From NCBI GenBank assembly GCA_002338255.1, contig DDHX01000059.1:23543-35170 (forward strand): DNA of 11,628 nt, read 5' to 3'. Position numbers and translations under genes: made by a program. The notes under the pieces are model-generated. The model searched no databases, had not been told where the DNA came from, and saw only the letters and a program-made list of their open reading frames with translations. This DNA is from Ruminococcaceae bacterium UBA1865. Lineage in GTDB: Bacteria > Bacillota > Clostridia > Oscillospirales > Acutalibacteraceae. This document shows positions 2,243 through 11,567 of the stretch, piece by piece. Numbering within the stretch: position 1 is the first letter of the stretch; each line of letters starts with the position of its first letter.

Positions 2243-3214
2243 ATGGCTGAACTAAGATGGCATCCTTTGATAAAGGATTGGATTATGATTGCTTCAAACC
2301 GGCAGGGACGTCCGCAAATGCCCAAGGATTACTGCCCGTTCTGCCCTCAGTTCGGCAATGTTCCGGACTACGACGTACTGAAGTACGACAATGACTTTCC
2401 GGCGCTTTCGCAAAACCCGCCCGAACCGGACGACGTTGCGACGGACTTCTTCAAGGTGAAACCGAGCTACGGCAAGTGCGAAGTAATTCTGTACTCCCCC
2501 GGACACACCGTGACCATGCCTGAACTTTCCGATACCCACATGAAGAAGCTTGTGGATTTATGGTGCGAACGTTTTGACGCGATGCGTTCGGATGAAAAAA
2601 TAAAATATGTGTTCCCGTTTGAAAACCGCGGCGATGTTGTGGGCGTGACCATGCCCCACCCGCACGGGCAAATTTACGGCTATTCGTTCCTGCCGAAAAA
2701 GCTGGAACTTGAAACCGACGCTGCAAAAGAGTATTATAGTGAGAAGAACGAGTGCCTGTTCTGTGATATGCTCAAAAACGAGCTGAAAGAAAACAAGCGC
2801 ATCATCTTCAAAAATGAACATTTTACCGTATTCCTTCCGTTCTATTGCGAATACCCCTACGGCGTGTACATTATCGCGAACCGCCATACGGAATATATGA
2901 CGAATTTTACCGACGGCGAAAAAATGTCGCTCGGTCTGACGATTCGGGACACCGTCGGGATGCTCGACAGCTTGTTTGATTATCGGTTCCCCTACATGAT
3001 GTGCATGCACAACGCTCCGGTCAACATGGGTGATTATTCAAAGGATTTTCATTTCCATATTGAATTCTTCCCACCGATGAGGAGCGCCGACAAGCAAAAG
3101 TTCAACGCTTCCAGTGAAACAGGCGCTTGGGCCAACTGCAATCCGACCTGCCCTGAGGAAACCGCAGAGGAACTTCGCGGGGCATACAAACGTTATAAGG
3201 AGAAACAAATATGA
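2243..3214 (+). CDS. galT: Galactose-1-phosphate uridylyltransferase
   Basis: Exchanges UMP between UDP-glucose and galactose-1-phosphate, giving UDP-galactose and glucose-1-phosphate, through a uridylyl-histidine intermediate. The class I active-site motif HPHGQ is at residues 139-143; by family knowledge the second histidine (141) is the nucleophile. Two CxxC pairs are visible: CPFC at 31-34, the expected zinc site, and CLFC near residue 174. The protein has 323 residues, a little short of the roughly 348 of the E. coli enzyme, but both halves of the fold are represented. The start is ATG at 2243, behind GGAGG at 2230-2234. An in-frame TTG at 2219 lies upstream of that ribosome binding site and is unlikely to be used. 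The stop overlaps the galE start as ATGA, so galE is translationally coupled. Confidence 0.95.
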   Translation: MAELRWHPLIKDWIMIASNRQGRPQMPKDYCPFCPQFGNVPDYDVLKYDNDFPALSQNPPEPDDVATDFFKVKPSYGKCEVILYSPGHTVTMPELSDTHMKKLVDLWCERFDAMRSDEKIKYVFPFENRGDVVGVTMPHPHGQIYGYSFLPKKLELETDAAKEYYSEKNECLFCDMLKNELKENKRIIFKNEHFTVFLPFYCEYPYGVYIIANRHTEYMTNFTDGEKMSLGLTIRDTVGMLDSLFDYRFPYMMCMHNAPVNMGDYSKDFHFHIEFFPPMRSADKQKFNASSETGAWANCNPTCPEETAEELRGAYKRYKEKQI

Positions 3215-4206
3215 AAGTATTAGTTACCGGCGGCGCGGGCTATATCGGCTCCCACACCTGCATAGAGCTTTTAAACAACGGCATGGAAGTCATTGTAATG
3301 GATAATTACTGCAACTCGTCCCCCGACGCACTGCGCGCAGTCGAAAAACTTACCAATAAGACTTTCCCGATTTACGAATGTGATATGCTCGATTATGACG
3401 GATTTGAGAAGATTTTTAAAGAAAACAAAATTGACGCGGTCATCCATTTCGCGGGATTAAAGGCAGTCGGCGAGTCCGTCAGCAAACCGCTGGAATATTA
3501 CCATAACAACCTGACCGGCACCATCAATCTGTTAAGACTGATGAAGAAATATGAAGTTTATCAGCTGGTATTCAGTTCCTCCGCGACCGTTTACGGAATG
3601 AACAATACGGCTCCCTTTAACGAGGATATGCCTCTTTCCACGACCAATCCGTACGGCACAACCAAGCTGATGATTGAGAATATTTTACAGGACGTTTGCT
3701 TTGCCGACAAAAACTGGAAGGTTGCGCTGCTGCGCTACTTCAACCCGATCGGCGCACACGAAAGCGGACTGATCGGCGAAAACCCGAACGGAATTCCGAA
3801 CAACCTGATGCCTTATATTATGAAGGTTGCGGTGGGCGAGCTCCAGTGCCTCAGCGTTTACGGCGACGACTATCCGACACCGGACGGAACCGGTGTGCGC
3901 GATTACATCCATGTTTGCGACCTTGCCACCGGCCACCTGAAAGCGCTTGAAAAGCTCCCCCATATTGCGGGCGCACAGGCTTATAACCTCGGCACCGGCA
4001 AAGGCAGCAGCGTACTCGACGTGGTACACGCGTTTGAAAAGGCGAGCGGCAAAACCGTAAAGTACAAACTTGCTCCGCGCAGAGCCGGCGACATCGCTGA
4101 ATGCTACGCCGATGTGTCAAAGGCGAAAAAAGAACTCGGCTGGGAAGCCAAGTACAGCCTTGACGACATGTGCAGGGACAACTGGAATTTTATAAAAAAC
4201 AAGTAA
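3211..4206 (+). CDS. galE: UDP-glucose 4-epimerase
   Basis: An extended short-chain dehydrogenase that interconverts UDP-galactose and UDP-glucose using tightly bound NAD. It regenerates the donor for GalT and supplies UDP-galactose for envelope sugars. The Rossmann motif GGAGYIGSH is at residues 7-15. The catalytic serine lies in SSSATVYG (122-129), and the Tyr-x-x-x-Lys pair is Y148/K152 in NPYGTTK. The length of 331 residues matches the family. AAGGAG at 3197-3202 precedes the start, and the ATGA overlap with galT marks a tight operon. The final codons (NFIKNK, stop) and the terminator that follows reappear about 2.4 kb downstream at 6634-6705. Confidence 0.96.
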   Translation: MKVLVTGGAGYIGSHTCIELLNNGMEVIVMDNYCNSSPDALRAVEKLTNKTFPIYECDMLDYDGFEKIFKENKIDAVIHFAGLKAVGESVSKPLEYYHNNLTGTINLLRLMKKYEVYQLVFSSSATVYGMNNTAPFNEDMPLSTTNPYGTTKLMIENILQDVCFADKNWKVALLRYFNPIGAHESGLIGENPNGIPNNLMPYIMKVAVGELQCLSVYGDDYPTPDGTGVRDYIHVCDLATGHLKALEKLPHIAGAQAYNLGTGKGSSVLDVVHAFEKASGKTVKYKLAPRRAGDIAECYADVSKAKKELGWEAKYSLDDMCRDNWNFIKNK

Positions 4207-4227
4207 TCCTGATAAAACCTATAAATT

Positions 4228-4262
4228 AAGCGGCATTAGCGAAAAGCGAATGCCGCTTTTTT
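4228..4262 (+). terminator. Intrinsic terminator of the gal operon
   Basis: The arms AAGCGGCATT (4228-4237) and AATGCCGCTT (4249-4258) pair perfectly over 10 bp around an 11-base loop. The run continues to six T residues at 4257-4262. It lies 21 bases after the galE stop and is a textbook rho-independent terminator. A diverged copy is at 6667-6715. Confidence 0.92.
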
Positions 4263-4418
4263 GCATCTATTTATAAAAGCACTTAATTTATTTGATTACA
4301 AATTCGTTATCATAATTGACAAACATCCTAAAACGGCATAAGGTTTAAATGTAATAAAGGAATATTTATTTAGAATTATATCAGTTGTTGCTTTATTGAA
4401 AAAAATATTTTTAAAATC

Positions 4419-4446
4419 TGTAACAAAACGAAGGGCTTAATCGTTA
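4419..4446 (+). promoter_or_regulatory. ECF-sigma promoter of the secreted-protein gene
   Basis: TGTAAC at 4419-4424 is followed after 17 bases by CGTTA at 4442-4446. This fits the TGAAAC/TGTAAC-N16/17-CGT pattern of ECF promoters in Firmicutes. A 30-base block including it (4418-4447) is 29/30 identical to 7850-7879 inside the sigma gene at 7659. It also resembles the promoter at 8960 across the spacer. Transcription would start near 4453, giving a leader of roughly 170 bases. The assignment is by pattern, not by measured start. Confidence 0.6.
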
Positions 4447-4529
4447 TATTAGCAGAAGGAATAATTTGGATTTCATACGCGCGCGTTGAACTATAAAAAA
4501 ACAAAGGAAAGGGGTGAATCAAATGAGTT

Positions 4530-4557
4530 TGTAACGGGGTGAAAAATTCCTCTTCTA
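4530..4557 (+). promoter_or_regulatory. Possible second ECF-type promoter, closer to the gene
   Basis: TGTAAC (4530-4535) is followed after exactly 16 bases by CTTCTA (4552-4557), one base from the CGTCTA seen at 8982. A start near 4564 would give a leader of about 57 bases and bypass the three-codon frame. This is weak evidence, because the -10 core G is missing. Confidence 0.25.
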
Positions 4558-4620
4558 AATCACCATGAGTTTTTGTTCGACTATAAACAATGGATTTAAA
4601 ATGAAGTAGAATTTAAAACT

Positions 4621-5265
4621 ATGAAAAAGAATCTGAAAAAAATTGTTAGCTTGGTTTTGGTACTGGCAATGACTTTGGCTATTTCTGTTCCGGCGTTTGC
4701 GGCAACTGCCGGTGAAGTCAATGCTATCTCAGTAGTCAAGAGTCAAAATAGCTCTAAAAATTCTATCGCTTATCAACAAAGGTTAAAAGAATTAGAAATA
4801 GTGAAAGAAAACTTGAAAGGTACTCCCGGGTTTAATGCCAAAATTAATGAAGAGAACACGATTGAGATTTATACTGACCAAGTGGACCAAATAAATAAGC
4901 AAGCGACTTTGTCTGGGAGTGGCCTTGTATATGGGCCATGGTTTGGCGGATATGATAGTGTCTATCAAATGTCTCCTTCAGAAACTGCAAAACTCGGGGT
5001 TGTAATGTCCAGTGCAATAATTCCATTTCTGAGCTCTTATGCTATTGCAGTTGCAGTTGCGGAGTCACTCACAAATACAATTGGGAATACACTTGTAGTA
5101 ACTCCTGGTCAATGGGTTAAAGTAGACAGAAGAAAAAGTTATAGAGAAGTAAAATATTCTGATGGTGAATTTGCATATTTTCAGACAAGAATAGGCGCTT
5201 CTGTTACAAGATCAGACACATATCTGGGTTCTGGTGAAACTATAATTTCTGGAGGAATGTGGTGA
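4621..5265 (+). CDS. Secreted protein of unknown function
   Basis: I do not recognise this 214-residue protein. It begins with a clear Sec signal peptide: KKNLKK, a hydrophobic core, and AFA at 25-27 before the likely cleavage. The mature part starts with a polar, helix-prone segment (about 38-66). Then come a Gly/Tyr/Trp patch (GLVYGPWFGGYDSVY, 101-115), a hydrophobic Ala/Ser/Ile-rich stretch (125-148) able to enter a membrane, and a basic, aromatic C-terminal region ending in GGMW. There is no cysteine and no lipobox. The ATG at 4621 is the only start, because an in-frame stop lies at 4597-4599, and its ribosome binding site is poor. It sits behind an ECF-type promoter and is followed by small membrane proteins. 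A 57-nt remnant of a related gene lies at 6567-6623, so it belonged to a family with at least two local members. A bacteriocin-like or envelope-stress role is a guess from architecture only. Confidence 0.8.
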   Translation: MKKNLKKIVSLVLVLAMTLAISVPAFAATAGEVNAISVVKSQNSSKNSIAYQQRLKELEIVKENLKGTPGFNAKINEENTIEIYTDQVDQINKQATLSGSGLVYGPWFGGYDSVYQMSPSETAKLGVVMSSAIIPFLSSYAIAVAVAESLTNTIGNTLVVTPGQWVKVDRRKSYREVKYSDGEFAYFQTRIGASVTRSDTYLGSGETIISGGMW

Positions 5266-5278
5266 TTGAAAAAAAGAT

Positions 5279-5440
5279 ATGAATGACTTTATAATTCAGT
5301 GCATTATTGCTATACTTGGTATTGTTACGGCATATTTGCCAAATGATATGTACATTTTCAAGATAGTTGGCATAATAATGTTTAATATTTTGGTATGGAG
5401 AAAACAAATACAGAAATTAGTATCCAGACGCAATAAATGA
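5279..5440 (+). CDS. Small two-helix membrane protein (53 residues)
   Basis: A short frame starting MNDFIIQCIIAILG, 13 bases after the stop of the secreted-protein gene. It has two hydrophobic stretches (about 5-21 and 24-40) separated by a PND turn, then a basic tail ending RRNK. It contains no cysteine-rich or catalytic motif. The only start in frame is ATG at 5279. The nearest good ribosome binding site (GGAGGA, 5251-5256) is about 22 bases away and inside the upstream gene, so translation may depend on coupling. The hydrophobic pattern and the position support a real gene, perhaps an accessory or protective partner of the secreted protein. That role is inference. Confidence 0.5.
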   Translation: MNDFIIQCIIAILGIVTAYLPNDMYIFKIVGIIMFNILVWRKQIQKLVSRRNK

Positions 5441-5469
5441 TTTCACCTATAACTTACCATCTATACAGC

Positions 5470-5495
5470 AAGCCGGCAGCACACACTGCCGGCTT
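5470..5495 (+). terminator. GC-rich stem-loop after the secreted-protein unit
   Basis: AAGCCGGCAG (5470-5479) pairs perfectly with CTGCCGGCTT (5486-5495) around a six-base loop. No strong T-run follows, so termination would be partial. The preceding CTATACAGC and the GGCAG...ACTGCC core recur in the larger hairpin at 9473-9512, suggesting a terminator family used repeatedly in this genome. Confidence 0.55.
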
Positions 5496-5517
5496 ATGTC
5501 TATAAAACTTAATATCT

Positions 5518-5543
5518 TGAAATGGTGTCCATCAAATCCAAGT
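5518..5543 (+). repeat. Direct repeat before the first paralogous membrane gene (copy 1)
   Basis: A 26-base block beginning TGAAATGGTGTCC is repeated at 6053-6078 with only two mismatches. Each copy lies about 50 bases before a start codon of one of two paralogous membrane genes, so the duplicated unit includes upstream DNA as well as coding sequence. In one reading frame both copies give EMVS(I/A)KSK followed by a stop, which could be the tail of a lost gene copy. Confidence 0.8.
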
Positions 5544-5570
5544 AGAGCATTTCCAAAAAGGAGATTTCAT

Positions 5571-6023
5571 ATGCAGAAAAAAGAGATAATAGCATTTTCG
5601 ATTTTTGGCTTTTTGCTTTCGCTTGCAAGCTTTATTAAAAATTTTATCATTATTAAAATGTTCGCTTTAGGAGGGCCCGACGGCCCGATCTCAAAAGAGA
5701 TAGGTAACCAAATTGAAAGTATGAATAAATATCAAATGATAGCGGAACGCGCATCTTATGGTATATTTATCTTTTTATTACTGTATATCGGGTGGAAGGT
5801 CGCATATGGATTTCTTAAACTGCGGTACATTATACCGATTACATTGATTATTCTGCTGGTTCCGGCTCTTATTGAATTTGCTTTTCAACCTGGGGATAGA
5901 AGTGCGTGGCTTTATTTAGGCAGAGACATAGTTCGCACCGCCGTTTGGATTGGAATTATGAAAATTTATAATATGGCATCGAAAAAAATGCAATTAAAAG
6001 ACGAAAAGAAGACGTTAGAATGA
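5571..6023 (+). CDS. Four-helix membrane protein, paralogue 1
   Basis: I do not recognise the family. The 150-residue protein has four likely membrane segments, at about 6-27, 61-80, 86-108 and 114-134. No signal for secretion is seen beyond the first helix. Motifs shared with the next gene are the N-terminus KKEIIAFSIFGFLL, LLYIGWK followed by YG and LRYI, FAFQP, and AVWI...KIYN near the end. The start at 5571 follows AAAAGGAG at 5556-5563 and gives an N-terminus aligned with its paralogue. A longer in-frame start at 5496 would add 25 residues overlapping the stem-loop and is rejected. No conserved catalytic pattern is visible. Its place behind a secreted-protein gene allows an immunity or export-accessory role, which is only an inference. 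Confidence 0.8.
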   Translation: MQKKEIIAFSIFGFLLSLASFIKNFIIIKMFALGGPDGPISKEIGNQIESMNKYQMIAERASYGIFIFLLLYIGWKVAYGFLKLRYIIPITLIILLVPALIEFAFQPGDRSAWLYLGRDIVRTAVWIGIMKIYNMASKKMQLKDEKKTLE

Positions 6024-6052
6024 AAAAAGTTTGTTGCTTATGGGTTGTATCC

Positions 6053-6078
6053 TGAAATGGTGTCCGCCAAATCCAAGT
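6053..6078 (+). repeat. Direct repeat before the second paralogous membrane gene (copy 2)
   Basis: The partner of 5518-5543 (24/26 identical), placed 49 bases before the start of the second paralogue. From the stop of paralogue 1 (6021-6023), the same frame stays open for 18 codons through this block to a second stop. The block may therefore derive from a lost longer C-terminus. Confidence 0.8.
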
Positions 6079-6101
6079 GAAACATTAAAAGGAGAATCTA
6101 T

Positions 6102-6566
6102 ATGCGTAAAAAAGAAATCATAGCATTTTCAATCTTTGGCTTTTTGCTTGCTCTAATACGACTTATTCAAAATTTACTCAAGACTAAGTCACTTGCAATC
6201 GGGCAACCATTTATCAACAAAAGCATTCCAAATAATATATATGAGCAAATGCAGGTTTTAAACAATTACTATAGCATAGCAATAATTACATGGAATATAT
6301 TAGCGATTTTTTTCCTGCTTTACATCGGATGGAAAATTGTATATGGACTCCTTGATTTGCGTTATATCGTGATTGGCACCCTTTGTATTTTCATTGTTTC
6401 GACATTGGTTGGATTTGCGTTTCAACCAAAAGATTGGACAATATGGCTGAGTCTTCTCCGTAACTTGATTTATTCCGCTGTTTGGATTATAATCACAAAA
6501 ATTTATAATCTTGCATGGAAAAGATATATTCGCCCCAATAACAAAGGGATTTCGACGAACCATTGA
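6102..6566 (+). CDS. Four-helix membrane protein, paralogue 2
   Basis: A 154-residue paralogue of the preceding gene, with the same order of four hydrophobic segments and the shared motifs KKEIIAFSIFGFLL, LLYIGWK, LRYI, FAFQP and KIYN. The N-terminal 16 residues differ at a single position, while the loop at about residues 30-60 has diverged strongly. The pair therefore looks like an older duplication with the external loop under less constraint or under diversifying pressure. AAAAGGAG at 6088-6095 supports the start. The tail (YIRPNNKGISTNH) differs from paralogue 1. The gene's stop is followed without a gap by the remnant of a secreted-protein gene, and its 3' end may have been shaped by that rearrangement. 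Function is unknown. Confidence 0.8.
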   Translation: MRKKEIIAFSIFGFLLALIRLIQNLLKTKSLAIGQPFINKSIPNNIYEQMQVLNNYYSIAIITWNILAIFFLLYIGWKIVYGLLDLRYIVIGTLCIFIVSTLVGFAFQPKDWTIWLSLLRNLIYSAVWIIITKIYNLAWKRYIRPNNKGISTNH

Positions 6567-6623
6567 TTAGCATATTATCAGGCAGGCATAAGAGCTTCTA
6601 TTACACGGGCAAAAACATATCTG
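6567..6623 (+). pseudogene. Remnant of a second secreted-protein gene (3' part)
   Basis: These 19 codons align without gaps to 5170-5226 (residues 184-202 of the secreted protein), with 44 of 57 bases identical. The remnant reads LAYYQAGIRASITRAKTYL where the intact gene reads FAYFQTRIGASVTRSDTYL. Changes are mostly conservative, which points to a once-functional diverged paralogue rather than a recent copy. It lacks any start and signal peptide. It begins directly after the stop of the upstream membrane gene and is joined at about 6624-6633 to a galE-tail remnant. Confidence 0.8.
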
Positions 6624-6633
6624 GTCAAACCTG

Positions 6634-6705
6634 AACTTTATAAAAAATAAGTAATCCTGATAAACTCAATCAATTTAGCGGCATTAGTGAAAAGCTAATG
6701 CCGCT
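6634..6705 (+). repeat. Second copy of the galE 3' end and terminator
   Basis: These 72 bases match 4186-4257 at 63 positions with no gaps, a displacement of exactly 2448 bp. The galE frame still reads NFIKNK then stop, with changes at synonymous third positions (AAT to AAC, AAC to AAT). The spacer and hairpin follow as in the original. Upstream of it the similarity fades within a few codons into the secreted-protein remnant. It is a relic of a related galE end rather than a gene. Confidence 0.88.
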
Positions 6706-6715
6706 AAATTGATTG
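6667..6715 (+). terminator. Perfect 21-bp hairpin, possible bidirectional terminator
   Basis: The arms 6667-6687 and 6695-6715 are perfect reverse complements over 21 bases around a seven-base loop. The inner part is the gal-operon terminator stem (AGCGGCATTAG/CTAATGCCGCT). Here the T-run has become part of a longer AT-rich stem. The hairpin lies between converging transcription units and could end both, though no strong T-run remains on either side. Confidence 0.7.
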
Positions 6716-6729
6716 TAATATGATAGAAT

Positions 6730-7122
6730 TTACTCTAAATCATTGATTCTCATTTTAGTAAGCTCTTTCTCGCGCTTTATCTTTTTGCGTTCAGCAAAAA
6801 ACACTACAAATAAAACTACGGTTAAGACATTGAAAAACACCAATATCAGAATGCTTGTTGGAAGATTGATACTTGTGACCACTGTGCTTTTTGAAATTAG
6901 TAATCCGTTATTATATTTCTCAAAAACTCGTGGCCCCAAAGTAGATCTATACATTGTCGATATTATTTGAACATCAATAATGATCGTGTTGAACAAGATA
7001 AGTAAAGGCAATATTAATCCTAACAATATGTGCTTTTTTGTAAGAAGTTTTTGTAAAAATACAATCCCTATAAACACTACCAAAGATATAATGCAATATA
7101 AAATATAAAATGGAACGCTCAT
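6730..7122 (-). CDS. Three-helix membrane protein next to a DUF2089-type regulator
   Basis: I do not recognise this 130-residue protein. It shows hydrophobic segments at about 5-24, 31-55 and 87-110, separated by a loop (56-86) that is probably outside the cell. It ends in a strongly charged cytoplasmic tail (ERKKIKREKELTKMRINDLE). The start lies one base after the stop of the upstream regulator gene, with GAGGAG before it. The two genes are therefore translated together, and a sensing or output role linked to that regulator is likely. No catalytic motif is visible. The gene converges on the 21-bp hairpin at 6667-6715. Confidence 0.75.
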   Translation of the reverse strand: MSVPFYILYCIISLVVFIGIVFLQKLLTKKHILLGLILPLLILFNTIIIDVQIISTMYRSTLGPRVFEKYNNGLLISKSTVVTSINLPTSILILVFFNVLTVVLFVVFFAERKKIKREKELTKMRINDLE

Positions 7123-7123
7123 A

Positions 7124-7423
7124 TTAGCACTCCTCTTTCAGTTTTTTGTACTCAGAAATTAAGATTTTCGCCGTATCTACATCAAATTTATCATTAGTGG
7201 CCAATCGTTTTATTAGTGAAATATATGGTTCATTTGCTGAATTTTCATTAATACCGATTTTTTGAATTAACCGGTCAAGTTTAAGTCGAACTGTAGGATA
7301 AGTTACACCATAATTATTTGCAATTTCTTTTAACGAACCTGATGCTAAAACAAACTTCTTTATGAACAAAACGTCTTCATCTTCTAAATTTAGCATCCAC
7401 TCAGGGATAACTTCAATTGGCAT
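7124..7423 (-). CDS. Short DUF2089-type transcriptional regulator
   Basis: A 99-residue protein resembling the C-terminal part of DUF2089 proteins. It has the typical opening PEWMLNLEDEDVLFIKKFVL, then ASGSLKEIANNYGVTYPTVR (about 28-47), a helix-turn-helix-like segment followed by a helix with LDRLIQKI. Many DUF2089 proteins carry an N-terminal zinc ribbon; none is present, so this is the short form. The rest (60-99) is helical and charged. The start follows AAGGGTGG. It is the first gene of a two-gene unit with the membrane protein. Two matched dyads in its own promoter make autoregulation plausible. The DNA-binding role follows from the motif; the regulated signal is unknown. Confidence 0.8.
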   Translation of the reverse strand: MPIEVIPEWMLNLEDEDVLFIKKFVLASGSLKEIANNYGVTYPTVRLKLDRLIQKIGINENSANEPYISLIKRLATNDKFDVDTAKILISEYKKLKEEC

Positions 7424-7442
7424 TCGTTAACCACCCTTCTTG

Positions 7443-7479
7443 TTTAACTATATTAAACATACCATTTAACATAATTAAA
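7443..7479. promoter_or_regulatory. Two tandem dyads, candidate operators
   Basis: TTTAA-N5-TTAAA occurs at 7443-7457 and again at 7465-7479. The centres are 22 bp apart, about two helical turns, and the inner bases are similar (CTATA, CATAA). One overlaps the -10 box and start point of the minus-strand promoter; the other fills the spacer between -35 and -10. This placement suits a repressor, probably the product of the adjacent regulator gene. The AT-rich background lowers the certainty. Confidence 0.45.
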
Positions 7480-7484
7480 GTCAA
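7456..7484 (-). promoter_or_regulatory. Sigma-A promoter of the DUF2089/membrane-protein unit
   Basis: On the minus strand TTGACT (7484-7479) is followed after 17 bases by TATGTT (7461-7456), with a TG extension just before the -10 box. A start near 7449 leaves about 25 bases to the gene. Confidence 0.65.
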
Positions 7485-7603
7485 ACCATTTTTAAATATT
7501 AATCCATTGGTTCTGTTACAAATTATGGCGGGCATGAGTACTTTTAAAGATCTCCTGACCGCCATTGTATTTCAAAGTATATTTCTTTTAAGATATTCTT
7601 GTA

Positions 7604-7632
7604 ATGACAATTTATAATTGCAATGCTATAAT
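7604..7632 (+). promoter_or_regulatory. Sigma-A promoter of the second sigma/anti-sigma operon
   Basis: ATGACA (7604-7609), a 17-base spacer and a perfect TATAAT (7627-7632) with a TGC extension just upstream. A start near 7639 leaves a leader of about 20 bases containing AGAAGGAGA before the gene. Confidence 0.75.
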
Positions 7633-7658
7633 GAAAATAAAAAAGAAGGAGAAATCGA

Positions 7659-8213
7659 ATGCTGATTTGCATACAAGCCATCCAGAATGATGCTGACCAC
7701 ACCATGGTGGAAGAGCTTTATCACCAACATTACAGTACCATGCTGTACATCGCTCAGGGCATTTTAAAAGACCGATATCGAGCGGAAGATGCCGTTTCTC
7801 AGGCTTTTATTAAAATAATTGATAATCTTCAAAAATTTTCTTTTGAAAACTGTAACAAAACGAAGGGTTTAATCGTTATCATTGTAAGAAATATTTGTTA
7901 CGACATTTTGAAAGCTGATAAGAGGCATAACCTGGTCGAACTGGATGAAGCCGAGAGTGTTTCGCAATCTTCAGAGGACGCGCCGTTGGAACATCTTCTG
8001 TCGGAAGAGAACAGCAAGGCTTTGATTGCCCTTTTATCTAACTTGAATGAAAAGTCCGGAAGCGTTTTGAAATTGAAATATTTATACGGCTATTCCGATG
8101 GTGAAATAGCAAAGATGCTTGATATTACACCTGAAAACGTTCGGGTACGGTTTTACCGCGCAAAAAAAGTTCTCATGGAAGAGATCAAGAAACGGGGGAG
8201 CGAAAATGAATAA
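7659..8213 (+). CDS. ECF-type RNA polymerase sigma factor (second pair)
   Basis: A 184-residue sigma-70 family protein. Region 2 is at about 17-88, with AEDAVSQAFIKI and the following NKTKGLIVIIVRNICYDILK. Region 4 is at about 120-175, with YSDGEIAKMLDITPENVRVR forming the helix-turn-helix. AGAAGGAGA supports the start at 7659. The stop overlaps the next gene by eight bases, and the next product is a membrane-anchored protein of anti-sigma architecture, so activity is probably held in check at the membrane until a signal arrives. It is the likely user of the TGTAAC...CGT promoters at 4419 and 8960, by proximity only. The codons for NKTKGLIVI contain a near-exact copy of the 4419 promoter block. 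Confidence 0.93.
   Translation: MLICIQAIQNDADHTMVEELYHQHYSTMLYIAQGILKDRYRAEDAVSQAFIKIIDNLQKFSFENCNKTKGLIVIIVRNICYDILKADKRHNLVELDEAESVSQSSEDAPLEHLLSEENSKALIALLSNLNEKSGSVLKLKYLYGYSDGEIAKMLDITPENVRVRFYRAKKVLMEEIKKRGSENE
7851..7878 (+). promoter_or_regulatory. ECF-promoter-like sequence inside the sigma gene
   Basis: TGTAAC-N17-CGTTA lies within a 30-base stretch (7850-7879) that differs from 4418-4447 at one base. It also encodes a conserved part of region 2, so it may be coding sequence that resembles a promoter or an internal start for the anti-sigma gene. The coincidence itself is firm; the function is not. Confidence 0.25.
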
Positions 8214-8946
8214 ATCTGAACTTTATGACAGAGTGTTTGAAACCTTTCTGCAAGCGGCTGTCGAAGAAAACTTTCAAGGGGAGTTAAATGCTTTGCCCCC
8301 GGAAAAAGTTTTAAGGAAAGAATACGCTCCCTCGCCGGAGCAAAAGCAAAGAATTCAAAAAGCAATACGAAAAGCGTATTATAAATCGCTGCGTCACAAA
8401 GCTGCGAATATCGCCAAAAAGGTCGCTGTTATTGTTGCCATCATCGTTCCAATATCATTGGGAAGCCTATTGAGCGTGGAAGCTTCCAGAAACGCCATCT
8501 TCAACACCGTTTTGGACTGGAAGTCCGACCATGTAAACGTTCACTTTCAGGAAGACAGTTCCAGTCAAATACACAAGTCCAAGCAGGGTGCGGAAGAAGT
8601 GAGCTTGTATCAGCCGCAATATCTTCCCGATGGATTTGCCAAAAGTGAAGCTGTTAAATTTGGCCCGACTCTGCAAACAAAATACCTGAACAAAGAAGAC
8701 GTGTCCATTGTTTTTGACCAAACTCCATTATCAAAAGAAGGAACAATTGCCCTTGATACGGAGCATTCAACGTTCAGTGAAATAACGATAAACGGGCAAA
8801 AGGCCTCCTTATTTGCGGCAAATACACCGGAAGATAATACTTTTATACTGTGGCAGGACAAAAAAACAAGCTTCATGCTCCGCTCGACAGTCGACCAAAA
8901 AGAATTGATAAAAATGGCCGAAAATATAAAAGCAGAAAGCAATTAA
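8206..8946 (+). CDS. Membrane-anchored anti-sigma factor, DUF4367-like
   Basis: A 246-residue protein with a charged cytoplasmic N-terminus (1-70) and one membrane helix at about 73-92 (VAVIVAIIVPISLGSLLSV). The extracellular domain contains YQPQYLPDGF at about 137-146 and a C-terminal part ending in a sequence typical of DUF4367 proteins (FILWQDKKTSFML, then ELIKMAENI). This is the known design of Clostridia anti-sigma factors. The start at 8206 follows GGGGGAG and overlaps the sigma gene by eight bases; a longer in-frame start at 8119 lies deep inside the sigma gene and is rejected. It probably binds the sigma factor inside and receives an envelope signal outside. The domain assignment is by memory of the pattern. 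Confidence 0.85.
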   Translation: MNKSELYDRVFETFLQAAVEENFQGELNALPPEKVLRKEYAPSPEQKQRIQKAIRKAYYKSLRHKAANIAKKVAVIVAIIVPISLGSLLSVEASRNAIFNTVLDWKSDHVNVHFQEDSSSQIHKSKQGAEEVSLYQPQYLPDGFAKSEAVKFGPTLQTKYLNKEDVSIVFDQTPLSKEGTIALDTEHSTFSEITINGQKASLFAANTPEDNTFILWQDKKTSFMLRSTVDQKELIKMAENIKAESN

Positions 8947-8959
8947 AATTCTATAAAAT

Positions 8960-8985
8960 TGTAACAAACAGATGGACTAATCGTC
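8960..8985 (+). promoter_or_regulatory. ECF-sigma promoter of the 138-residue membrane protein
   Basis: TGTAAC (8960-8965), 16 bases, then CGTC (8982-8985) continuing TATATAAT. This is the classical ECF arrangement. It starts 14 bases after the anti-sigma gene and about 80 bases before the next gene. The spacer resembles the one at 4419 (GG.CTAAT before CGT), suggesting the same sigma factor reads both. Confidence 0.65.
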
Positions 8986-9041
8986 TATATAATAGTTTAG
9001 CTTTGGTGCCACCATTTTAGTGCAGAATTGGAGTAATTTAC

Positions 9042-9458
9042 ATGATGAACTTTCTTGAAAAAATTCGTAATAAGCTGGTTCACTTTTTATTTCCCTTCGT
9101 AGAGGGCTTTTATCCGTTCATATCCTTGGTGTTGATTGTGGCTACCTGGTCTATTCCTGAAGCCTACGGGCAAATCAGAATCGTTTTATTTTGGCTCTGG
9201 TTTGTAAATAGTGAAATTAACTGGGCAGGCATTATAGAACGCGACTATCTTCCCATACAACCCGGAAACAGCTTATTCTATCACATTTACCGGTTTATCA
9301 ATCAGGCTTTCTTCCTCTTTCTGCTCATTTTCCTAATCACCATGCTAATTCCGGGACTGCTGTGGCTTAAGAGTGGCTTTGGCGTTGTGTTCGTCATAGC
9401 CATCATTCTTCGCGCTATCGGAGATCGAAAGTACCGCCCAAAAAAACCAGAAGAATAA
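9042..9458 (+). CDS. Small integral membrane protein, likely ECF-regulon member
   Basis: A 138-residue protein with hydrophobic stretches at about 23-37, 44-58, 87-107 and 112-125, an amphipathic N-terminus and a basic C-terminal tail (RKYRPKKPEE). I do not recognise the family. The polar loop at 59-85 (ERDYLPIQPGNSLFYH) is probably exposed. A GGAG at 9030-9033 supports the ATG at 9042; a second ATG directly follows and could be used instead. Its own ECF-type promoter and its position right after the sigma/anti-sigma pair suggest that it carries out part of the envelope response that pair controls. It is not detectably similar to the two paralogous membrane proteins at 5571 and 6102. Confidence 0.8.
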   Translation: MMNFLEKIRNKLVHFLFPFVEGFYPFISLVLIVATWSIPEAYGQIRIVLFWLWFVNSEINWAGIIERDYLPIQPGNSLFYHIYRFINQAFFLFLLIFLITMLIPGLLWLKSGFGVVFVIAIILRAIGDRKYRPKKPEE

Positions 9459-9472
9459 TTGCTTGTTTATCT

Positions 9473-9512
9473 ATACAGCGGGGCGGCAGTGTGTACTGCC
9501 CCCCCGCTGTAT
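9473..9512. terminator. Bidirectional hairpin terminator between converging genes
   Basis: The arms 9473-9490 and 9495-9512 pair over 18 bases with one mismatch around a GTGT loop. The stem is very GC-rich (GCGGGGCGGCAGT). It lies between a plus-strand gene ending at 9458 and a minus-strand operon ending at 9528. It shares CTATACAGC and the GGCAG/ACTGCC core with the hairpin at 5470. Confidence 0.8.
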
Positions 9513-9527
9513 TATTATACGGAATCG

Positions 9528-10580
9528 TTATCCCCTCAGGCTTTGAAGAATTTCCTCAGCGTTTGCTTTCGTAACGGCGCGGTAAGGGACGCGAACATAG
9601 TGGCTACTCTCCAAATTCACTACGTCGGCGGGGTCTTTTCCGGAGGCAACACAATAGGATAACTCAAACATTGCCTTGGCCTGCCCTTGTGCATCGTTAA
9701 ACACCGTACCAAACATTCCGCCATCCTCAATGGCATTGATGCCATTTTCCGTTGCGTCGATACCCACCACAACGGGCTTGACCTTCAGTTTGCTTTCCTT
9801 CAGCGTGTCAATCGCGCCAAGCGCCATGTCGTCGTTATTACTGAAAACCACTTCAATCCGGTCGCCCAACTTTGTAATCCACTGCGCCATTTTCGCCGAA
9901 CCCTGCGCGCGCTGCCAATTGGCCGTGTCGTTTGCCAGCTTTTCCACTTGGATTCCCGCGTTTGTGACAGCCTTAATCGAATACTCCGTTCTTAGCAGCG
10001 CGTCCTGATGCCCCTGCTCGCCCTCAAGCATCACATACTGAATTTTTCCGTCTCCGTTTTTATCAATCTGCTTACGGTCCTTCTTGAAAGCATTGGCAAT
10101 GATTTCACCCTGCAGGCGACCGGACTCGGCTGCGTCCGCCCCGACATAATAAGCACGGTTCCACATTCGTAAATCCTCCTCAACCGGTTCACGGTTAAAA
10201 AAGACAACCGGAATATTGGCCGCTTTTACCTTATCCACAATCACTGCGGCGGCAGTGCGGTCAACCATGTTGACGCAAATTACATTGTAATTCTGTGAAA
10301 TAAAGCTGTCCACCTGATCATTTTGCAGTGCCTGACTCGACTGCCCATCTACAATATTAATCACAATTTTTTTGCCGGTCTCTGTTTCCTTTTCCTTGGA
10401 AACCTTTTCAAGGTATGCACAAAGGCTGGTAACAAAGGTGTCGTCCTTGCGGTAGACTGTCACGCCGATTTTGACTGTCTCGACTTTTGCGCTGCTGTTG
10501 TTGGAGTCGCACGCACAAAGAGAAGAAAAGAACAGGGCCGCGGCCAGAACGATTGCCATGGATTTCATAAAGCTTTTCAT
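9528..10580 (-). CDS. mglB: Galactose/glucose-binding lipoprotein, MglB-like
   Basis: A periplasmic-binding-protein-fold lipoprotein that captures D-galactose or D-glucose outside the cell, for an ABC importer and/or a sensor. A signal peptide runs to a lipobox (LCAC) with Cys24 as the lipid site. The calcium loop typical of the family is at 173-181 (DKNGDGKIQ), and GEQGHQDALLRTE (188-200) supplies His and Asp expected at the sugar site. FFNREP (128-132), the Trp in NDTANWQRAQ, SNNDDMALGA and GIDAT match other ligand contacts known from E. coli MglB. Its 350 residues fit the family. GGAGG precedes the start, and the upstream gene ends 12 bases before. No mglA or mglC follows: a terminator lies directly downstream, so transport partners must be elsewhere, or the protein works with a sensor. 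Confidence 0.88.
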   Translation of the reverse strand: MKSFMKSMAIVLAAALFFSSLCACDSNNSSAKVETVKIGVTVYRKDDTFVTSLCAYLEKVSKEKETETGKKIVINIVDGQSSQALQNDQVDSFISQNYNVICVNMVDRTAAAVIVDKVKAANIPVVFFNREPVEEDLRMWNRAYYVGADAAESGRLQGEIIANAFKKDRKQIDKNGDGKIQYVMLEGEQGHQDALLRTEYSIKAVTNAGIQVEKLANDTANWQRAQGSAKMAQWITKLGDRIEVVFSNNDDMALGAIDTLKESKLKVKPVVVGIDATENGINAIEDGGMFGTVFNDAQGQAKAMFELSYCVASGKDPADVVNLESSHYVRVPYRAVTKANAEEILQSLRG

Positions 10581-10592
10581 TTCAATCCTCCA

Positions 10593-11567
10593 TCATCTTA
10601 CAAATGGGAAGAGCAAACGCTGATTGTCGGAATTATACATGTTCTCGTGGTCTACAATTGCAAAATTAATATTTGTATTCGCCGTGTCATAATTCTTATT
10701 GATATGATTGATTGCTGTTTTTATACTGAGATACCCCAAGTTATACTCGTTCTCCACACCGATAGAATTGATAAGCCGGTCGTCAAGCAACGAAACGACT
10801 GTGTTGGTTCTTCCAATCCCGTAAATCCGTATCTGTTTGCTGCCCGTTTTCAGTAAGTCCCGCTCCGCTTTGGCGGCAGCCTCCAGTGTTGCGCCATCCA
10901 ACGCAATCAGCGTGTCGGCACTGCTGCTTTGGAGCAAGCCTTTGGCGGTGTCGTAAGCATCCTGCGGGTCATCGGGAATATTCCAGTATTCAATCTGACT
11001 TTTAGCTGCATTCAGCTGACGCGTCACACCCAGATATCGCTGATTGATATTGCTGCAATCCATGCTGTTTTGCAGAATTGCGATACGGTTATCCGAAATT
11101 CCATTATTGATTACCGCCTTGGCGAGTGCGCCGCCAAGCTGAAGATTGTCACAGGAAATGTATGGCAAATCCTTCATGCCGTCAACCGTTGACTGCATGG
11201 TAATGACCGGGACGCTTTTCTGGGCTTTTTCAATCGGCTGCTTTAAATCTTTGGAATTGACCGGCGCAATGACAATTGCTTTTGCCCCGTTTTTAATTTC
11301 CCGTTGCAAAAGTGAAATTTGTTCCTGAACATCGTTGTCGCGAGCCAGTGTAATAAAGCTGACCTCTGCATTCAAATCCCGCGCCGCCTGATCAATTCCC
11401 TGTTTAATTGTAGTACTGCTTTCCGCACTTTTACTGCGGTAGATGACCGATATTTCGTAAGGGTCGCTGTTCTTTTTTCCAAATATACGATCTTTGTTTA
11501 AAAGGGCGAAAGACACCGCAAATGCAAGCAAAATCAAAATAAATACCATGATTTTTTTCTTTGTCAT
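10593..11567 (-). CDS. Membrane-anchored periplasmic-binding-fold protein, likely sugar sensor subunit
   Basis: A 324-residue protein with one N-terminal membrane helix (about 6-23) and no lipobox, so it stays anchored by that helix. The rest has the fold pattern of LacI/ribose-binding-type domains: ISVIYRSKSAESSTTIKQGI at the start, then QISLLQREIKNGAKAIVIAP, VPVITMQSTV, and LIALDGATLEAAAKAERDLL. Known relatives of this design are extracellular sensors that work with a LytS/YesM-type kinase, such as XylFII in clostridia. The start overlaps the stop of the upstream gene as ATGA, behind AAAGGAGGT. MglB follows after 12 bases. A role in sensing the sugar that MglB binds is inferred from this layout. 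Confidence 0.8.
   Translation of the reverse strand: MTKKKIMVFILILLAFAVSFALLNKDRIFGKKNSDPYEISVIYRSKSAESSTTIKQGIDQAARDLNAEVSFITLARDNDVQEQISLLQREIKNGAKAIVIAPVNSKDLKQPIEKAQKSVPVITMQSTVDGMKDLPYISCDNLQLGGALAKAVINNGISDNRIAILQNSMDCSNINQRYLGVTRQLNAAKSQIEYWNIPDDPQDAYDTAKGLLQSSSADTLIALDGATLEAAAKAERDLLKTGSKQIRIYGIGRTNTVVSLLDDRLINSIGVENEYNLGYLSIKTAINHINKNYDTANTNINFAIVDHENMYNSDNQRLLFPFVR

Follow-up and report, generated by a model that had tools for sequence, protein, structure and literature searches.

A second galE tail within accessory DNA that carries an ECF sigma factor gene in Ruminococcaceae bacterium UBA1865

In Ruminococcaceae bacterium UBA1865, galE is followed by a 5.3 kb accessory insertion, which encodes an extracytoplasmic function (ECF) sigma factor and carries a second copy of the galE tail. 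The stretch analysed, referred to here as the window, comprises 11,628 nucleotides (GenBank assembly GCA_002338255.1, contig DDHX01000059.1, positions 23,543 to 35,170 of the forward strand). The galE gene is an open reading frame (ORF) at 3211–4206 on the plus strand, and its product is 86–92% identical to that of galE in all 11 congeneric genomes compared. An earlier reading of the DNA letters without database searches (the sequence-only reading) had reported that bases 4186–4257 match bases 6634–6705 at 63 of 72 positions, ungapped and with a displacement of 2448 bp, and this was reproduced exactly, coordinates included. A repeat search extends the match to 4180–4257 (copy 1) and 6628–6705 (copy 2), both on the plus strand, with 67 of 78 positions identical. 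The best other match to the tail in the window reaches 34 of 72 positions and the best in 500 dinucleotide-preserving shuffles 41 of 72, while BLASTN of the tail repeat gives E = 1.65e-19.

Copy 1 comprises the galE tail, a spacer and a terminator hairpin, followed by a T-run. Its coding part (4180–4206, the last eight codons and the stop) is the genuine end of galE, as had been proposed. Copy 2 consists of a relic galE tail and the hairpin. The codon differences had been described as synonymous third-base changes only, and the second tail had been ascribed to a related galE under selection. Two third-base T/C differences are present, but among the upstream codons gained by the extension TGG in copy 1 stands against CTG in copy 2, a two-base, non-synonymous difference. 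If the sequence were neutral, two differences confined to third bases would arise by chance about one time in nine (hand arithmetic). Because the non-synonymous codon adjoins them, the case for selection on copy 2 as galE is weakened, and an origin drawn from two third-base changes and contradicted by the neighbouring codon is a weak one.

The insertion (4207–9527, 5321 bp) lies between galE and a convergent mglB-type gene. Its first gene (4621–5265, plus strand) encodes an exported protein of 214 aa with a signal peptide (by eye), from an uncharacterised family. It is followed on the same strand by the gene for a small membrane protein, sm53 (5279–5440), and by those for two membrane proteins, M1 (5571–6023) and M2 (6102–6566), all three named by eye. 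The paralogy of M1 and M2 is evident from a repeat (5556–5656 and 6087–6187, 77% identical over 101 nt). M2 has homologues, and M1 is 94% identical to the protein P0031. P0030 (89 aa; its contigs reach 40003 bases) is 99% identical to M2 over 45% and diverges thereafter, and from this M2 appears to be truncated in a close strain. Downstream of copy 2, the minus strand encodes a membrane protein of 130 aa (6730–7122, by eye), with matches in two of 398 sampled genomes of the family, and a DUF2089-type helix-turn-helix (HTH) protein (7124–7423; PF09862, E 5.5e-17). The plus strand then carries the ECF sigma factor gene (7659–8213; PF08281, PF04542, TIGR02937), a putative anti-sigma gene with a DUF4367 domain (8206–8946; PF14285, E 9e-18 for the ORF at 8119–8946), which also follows the sigma gene in relatives, and a gene for a membrane protein (by eye), mem138 (9042–9458). 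Scanning the window for Rfam families and for tRNAs gave no match.

Relatives were reached through galE and comprise UBA2656 (92% protein identity) and its genus, 11 genomes in which the window's own species is not represented; both the galE and the mglB-type flank are visible in eight of them. In six of the eight, the stop-to-stop gap between the two genes is 43–487 bp, with no recognised gene (50 bp in locus L001, 56 in L129, 43 in L131, 487 in L132, 241 in L134 and 142 in L135; L132 and L134 hold short ORFs only), compared with 5321 bp in the window. The remaining two gaps contain unrelated genes, named by eye: an HTH gene, a transporter and a zinc-ribbon protein in the 4180-bp gap of L130 (4908–9087), and a zinc-ribbon protein in the 2053-bp gap of L133 (5073–7125, both in oriented locus coordinates), so the gap tolerates insertions. 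In L002, L136 and L137 the contig shows no mglB-type gene after galE and continues downstream for only 1118, 255 and 55 bp.

The window's insert is thus not at the galE-mglB site in any of the eight congeners with both flanks. This bears out the earlier view that the bracketed genes are accessory, and the comparison of galE 3' flanks that had been proposed as a check finds a short site without cargo in six of the eight. The low GC content noted for the bracketed part is likewise borne out (0.31–0.37 in 500-bp windows over 4251–6750, against 0.45–0.53 in galKTE). The extent of the insert has to be redrawn, however. Since the site is short or otherwise filled in congeners, all 5.3 kb are accessory and not merely the 2.45 kb between the tails; accessory DNA runs for 2.8 kb past copy 2 to the mglB-type gene. 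Of the idea of an insertion or exchange at the galE terminator, the real and accessory insert therefore stands, while the tails are not its boundaries, and the second tail parts genes that are grouped in relatives. A gene-tail repeat need not delimit an insertion; here the comparison with congeners shifts the boundaries, and the second tail then looks like an internal scar.

The grouping in relatives is seen around the sigma gene. Homologues of the sigma and anti-sigma genes occur together in ten loci, within the genus (L173, L174, L175, L199, L200 and L201) and outside it (L177, L178, L180 and L181), and L179 has the sigma gene with a partial anti-sigma gene. Homologues of the exported-protein gene, sm53 or mem138 adjoin the sigma/anti-sigma pair in L173, L174, L175, L199 and L200; the exported-protein match in L178 covers the leader only. 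Those of mem138 are in the islands of L174, L199 and L200; in L176 such a homologue neighbours an exported-protein gene. Anti-sigma matches with E <1e-60 are found in six of the 11 genus genomes and weak ones in two more; all of these lie on a contig other than that of galE or are separated from galE by more than 280 kb. On one flank of the sigma island, L173, L175 and L199 have the same large gene, a permease by eye. In L173, L199 and L200 a homologue of sm53 closely precedes the sigma gene, and in L199 and L200 it does so directly. In the window the interval from sm53 to the sigma gene is 2.2 kb and holds M1, M2, an exported-gene relic, tail 2 and the minus-strand membrane ORF and HTH gene. 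As sm53 adjoins the sigma gene in L199 and L200 but tail 2 lies between them in the window, we take tail 2 to lie inside the insert.

The relic is a 5'-truncated 3' part of an exported-protein gene, 62 bp long (6566–6627, plus strand), directly before copy 2. Within it, 6566–6624 matches 5169–5227, close to the 3' terminus of the exported-protein gene, with 78% identity over 59 nt, and the galE frame of copy 2 differs, by position, from the frame of the relic. At copy 1 the galE tail leads into the exported-protein gene; at copy 2 an exported-gene tail leads into the galE tail, and this reversed order is the junction expected from a tandem duplication or a circle. Truncated exported-gene tails also occur in L174 and L175, which are sigma islands, and at another locus, L203.

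On balance, and by a narrow preference, we take copy 2 to be the relic of a duplication or of a crossover junction inside an accessory sigma island beside galE. An island encoding an exported protein, a small membrane protein, the ECF sigma factor, the anti-sigma protein and a membrane protein would have arrived between galE and the mglB-type gene, which converge. A rearrangement inside it would have placed a copy of the galE tail, with its terminator, behind the 3' end of a second exported-protein gene, either when a segment that begins with the galE tail was duplicated in tandem or when DNA with such a junction recombined with the galE tail. Copy 2 would then have been without a job, and the neighbouring gene may have decayed to about 60 bp while the T-run was lost and the hairpin became a perfect palindrome. 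The repeat itself, the relatives' short site, the relic next to copy 2 and the absent T-run are observed; the position of copy 2 inside a single island, the order of these events and the type of recombination are what we infer. The second tail is most probably a scar that gene turnover left in an accessory sigma island by galE, and as a tail repeat it is ordinary.

Several observations weigh against this account. What follows tail 1 has no second copy after tail 2, and no intermediate was seen among the 11 congeners, a sample without the window's own species. The collinearity argument draws on islands of strongly varying gene content. Homologues of the M-type genes lie at a sigma-less locus in genomes G012 and G013, though one is about 2 kb from a sigma gene in L181, and the pair of HTH gene and membrane ORF is absent from the sigma islands inspected. 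A tandem duplication followed by deletion, which had been among the earlier suggestions, is a live explanation; since the sequence after tail 1 is not repeated after tail 2, tandem duplication alone does not account for the arrangement without additional deletions.

The age of the second tail bears both on a relic of duplication and on a separate arrival. The two window tails align with a local score of 56. Among all galE-tail pairs from the window and the 11 congeners, 65 of 66 score below this, the exception being L132/L134 (67), with galE genes 95.7% identical; the other pair with galE 95.7% identical has tails that score 33, and eight pairs at 86.8–90.3% score 22–42. Because the score is this high and the window's galE has a DNA identity of at most 83.3% to that of any of the 11 congeners, the tails would have parted recently on the scale of the genus, probably after the window's lineage had left all sampled species, by duplication or via an unsampled close relative. 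A Campbell-type second insertion, in which the sigma part came first and DNA of a closely related, unsampled donor, circular or linear and with its own galE tail, then integrated via the galE tail to leave tails flanking 4258–6627, fits a tail divergence like that between close species, and its geometry of tail, cargo, tail and old flank needs no extra deletions. Homologues of the bracketed exported-protein gene and sm53, however, sit with sigma genes in the islands of relatives. The donor proposed in the sequence-only reading was also not found among the 11 congeneric tails, to nine of which tail 2 is farther in local score than tail 1, with a tie for L137 and a marginally closer match for L133 (17 against 15). 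We consider such a second insertion rather unlikely, but the foremost competitor of a relic formed within the island.

Many genomic islands integrate at tRNA genes and at some protein genes, and islands at gene 3' ends have a reconstituted gene tail. The window is similar in that a gene tail with its terminator is directly repeated around accessory genes, so site-specific integration at the galE 3' end by an element that brought a replacement gene tail has the direct repeats in its favour. It differs in that no recombinase is recognised and the accessory DNA continues past the second tail, so that the repeats are not boundaries. None of the 10 ORFs scanned is recognised as an integrase or transposase, and the HTH protein matches an ISL3 transposase at E 0.027 and 13.6 bits, against a cut-off of 180. 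The repeats are 14% diverged and lack a long identical core. A search of phages gave no match and a search of plasmids matched the DUF2089/HTH region alone, in two records; viral contigs searched for the shared stretch of the tails, the hairpin and the exported family yielded nothing confirmed, and viral galE matches are distant (at most 42%).

The site was also not seen to be used in this way at other galE loci, which together with these differences makes site-specific integration very improbable. A comparable second galE tail was found at none of 87 other galE loci, 79 of which have at least 2 kb downstream (self-matches within 3 bp dropped, up to four matches shown per locus). Most of the matches shown are the terminator's own inverted half or AT-rich stretches of low identity; nine of the loci with other, weak secondary matches were rechecked and reach 37–43 of 72 positions, ungapped, compared with 63 in the window, and seven of the nine are 70–76% AT. 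No integration hotspot at galE ends was seen. Variable insertion sites also occur between conserved convergent genes, and the congeners, in which the galE–mglB interval is either short or occupied by different genes, show the window to be similar to these; the repeated galE tail, seen in the window but at none of the 87 loci, sets it apart.

The two hairpins have fared differently. That of copy 1 has a terminator-like fold followed by TTTTTT (4215–4270, −19.1 kcal/mol, z −4.4). The second had been regarded as a copy of a working terminator, but its T-run is gone: AAATTGATTG stands in its place and completes a perfect 21-bp inverted repeat with a 7-nt loop (6667–6715; −34.2 kcal/mol and z −10.3 on the plus strand), in which the bases 3' of the hairpin mirror those 5' of it. 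No T-run of four or more directly follows this repeat on either strand. The second hairpin sits between convergent genes, and in our view it should not be called an intrinsic terminator. A terminator scan of the window listed neither hairpin; the loop of copy 1, by the scan's own count, exceeds its loop limit. Template switching is reported to perfect quasi-palindromes (PMC7202029), and the same process may have made the palindrome of copy 2. Template switching or break repair might even have inserted a short patch copied from the galE tail into the island, with no larger duplication; the abutting short patches (about 60 and 78 bp) agree with this, as does the palindrome, a change within reach of template switching. 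On present data, however, the outcome looks the same as the decay of a longer duplication, and we think patch copying distinctly unlikely, if somewhat less so than integration by a site-specific element.

The window's exported protein has 18 homologues over most of its length and five leader-anchored matches, with six contigs listed in the protein database. The latter five, P0020–P0024, match 26–28 of its first 28 residues (all 28 in P0020), and beyond residue 28 no BLASTP match to them is better than E 0.19, which suggests that bodies have been exchanged behind a constant leader. The longest contig is 7489 bases for each of P0020, P0025 (90% identical to M2) and P0031, which suggests that the three lie together on one contig. 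M-type genes adjoin P0020-like proteins in L181 (38% identity) and L203 (37%), and L203 has an additional 57-residue tail of a P0020-like protein (51%). Pfam searches gave no match for the window protein, and all its NCBIfam matches are far below cut-off; fold and PDB searches gave no usable match (best Foldseek E 0.05 at TM 0.14, and a single sequence match with E 0.7), with a model of mean pLDDT 71. No toxin domain family scores above cut-off in the scanned proteins, and across 19 members of the exported family no Pfam family matches more than one. Polymorphic toxin loci with displaced 'orphan' tails are reported (PMC3967940). The present loci share with polymorphic toxin loci a common N-terminal leader with different bodies, truncated tails and small membrane genes alongside, but the exported proteins match no known toxin family, and a toxin or immunity activity is only putative.

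The sigma gene and its surroundings resemble an ECF regulon: the protein has sigma-70 regions 2 and 4, an adjacent gene with DUF4367 encodes a candidate anti-sigma protein, and a common TGTAAC-type motif lies upstream of the putative targets. The motif consists of TGTAACAAA, 12–13 bases and TCGTYTATAT, and precedes the exported-protein genes of L173 and L175 as well as the window's mem138 (8960–8990, plus strand, one mismatch to the consensus). A similar promoter-like motif, recognised by eye upstream of the window's exported-protein gene (4419–4449, plus strand), failed the strict patterns and fits only with a one-base gap, its −10 part being one base shorter than that of relatives. The strict pattern TGTAACAAA-N13-TCGTTTAT occurs nine times in the 11 genomes, three times each in G001, G005 and G013 and not in the other eight, and all nine sites are within 5.4 kb of the sigma gene; this confinement sets the islands apart from ECF sigma/anti-sigma regulons as known. 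The reversed pattern has no match in the 11 genomes, and the motif none in 1.37 Mb of galE loci. The islands of G008 and G012 have a variant, TCGTTAATGT, at four and two sites (loci L199 and L200), and the sigma loci L177–L181 and L201 show no match within two mismatches. The motif, to go by its distribution, follows the sigma gene in part of the genus and not throughout the family. A literature search joining ECF sigma factor, DUF4367 and clostridi gave no match, from which no claim on the print record is intended.

These features could be those of a family of self-contained sigma islands, an idea we hold tentatively and at somewhat less than even confidence. An island-confined motif would drive changing secreted proteins, with body swaps behind a near-constant promoter and signal peptide and with small membrane partners, and the galE tail would be a scar of turnover. 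The island's sigma factor apparently serves only its own neighbourhood of secreted proteins, a case open to testing. In L173, L174, L175, L199 and L200 there are two to four copies of the promoter motif each and many small secreted or membrane proteins.

A stretch of the sigma coding sequence (7828–7879, around residues CNKTKGLIVI) resembles 4396–4447, with 85% identity over 52 nt. A candidate explanation of 4396–4447 as a sigma-gene fragment was set aside, as comparison with relatives suggests the promoter region of the exported-protein gene instead. The sigma genes of L173, L174, L175 and L180 contain a related pattern as well, and the resemblance may reflect either an internal promoter or a chance similarity of a conserved coding motif.

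When nine accessory proteins were compared with 89 other galE loci at E 1e-4, the single match was to the ECF sigma factor, in L072; at E 1e-3, weak sigma matches appear in L001, L131 and L132, where a different ECF-type gene is close to galK. At 148–654, upstream of galK, the window has another ORF that by eye is sigma-like and of ECF type, and the stretch that holds it aligns in L001, L129, L131, L132 and L134. At the other end, the minus strand at 9528–11567 carries two tandem genes for sugar-binding proteins, the mglB-type gene and another, found beside galE in eight of the 11 congeners. A hairpin where the mglB-type gene ends (9473–9512, 3' side), seen in repeat and fold analysis, resembles by eye the ACAGCG...CGCTGT hairpins of relatives, and is possibly a descendant of a hairpin common to galE and mglB at the relatives' short site.

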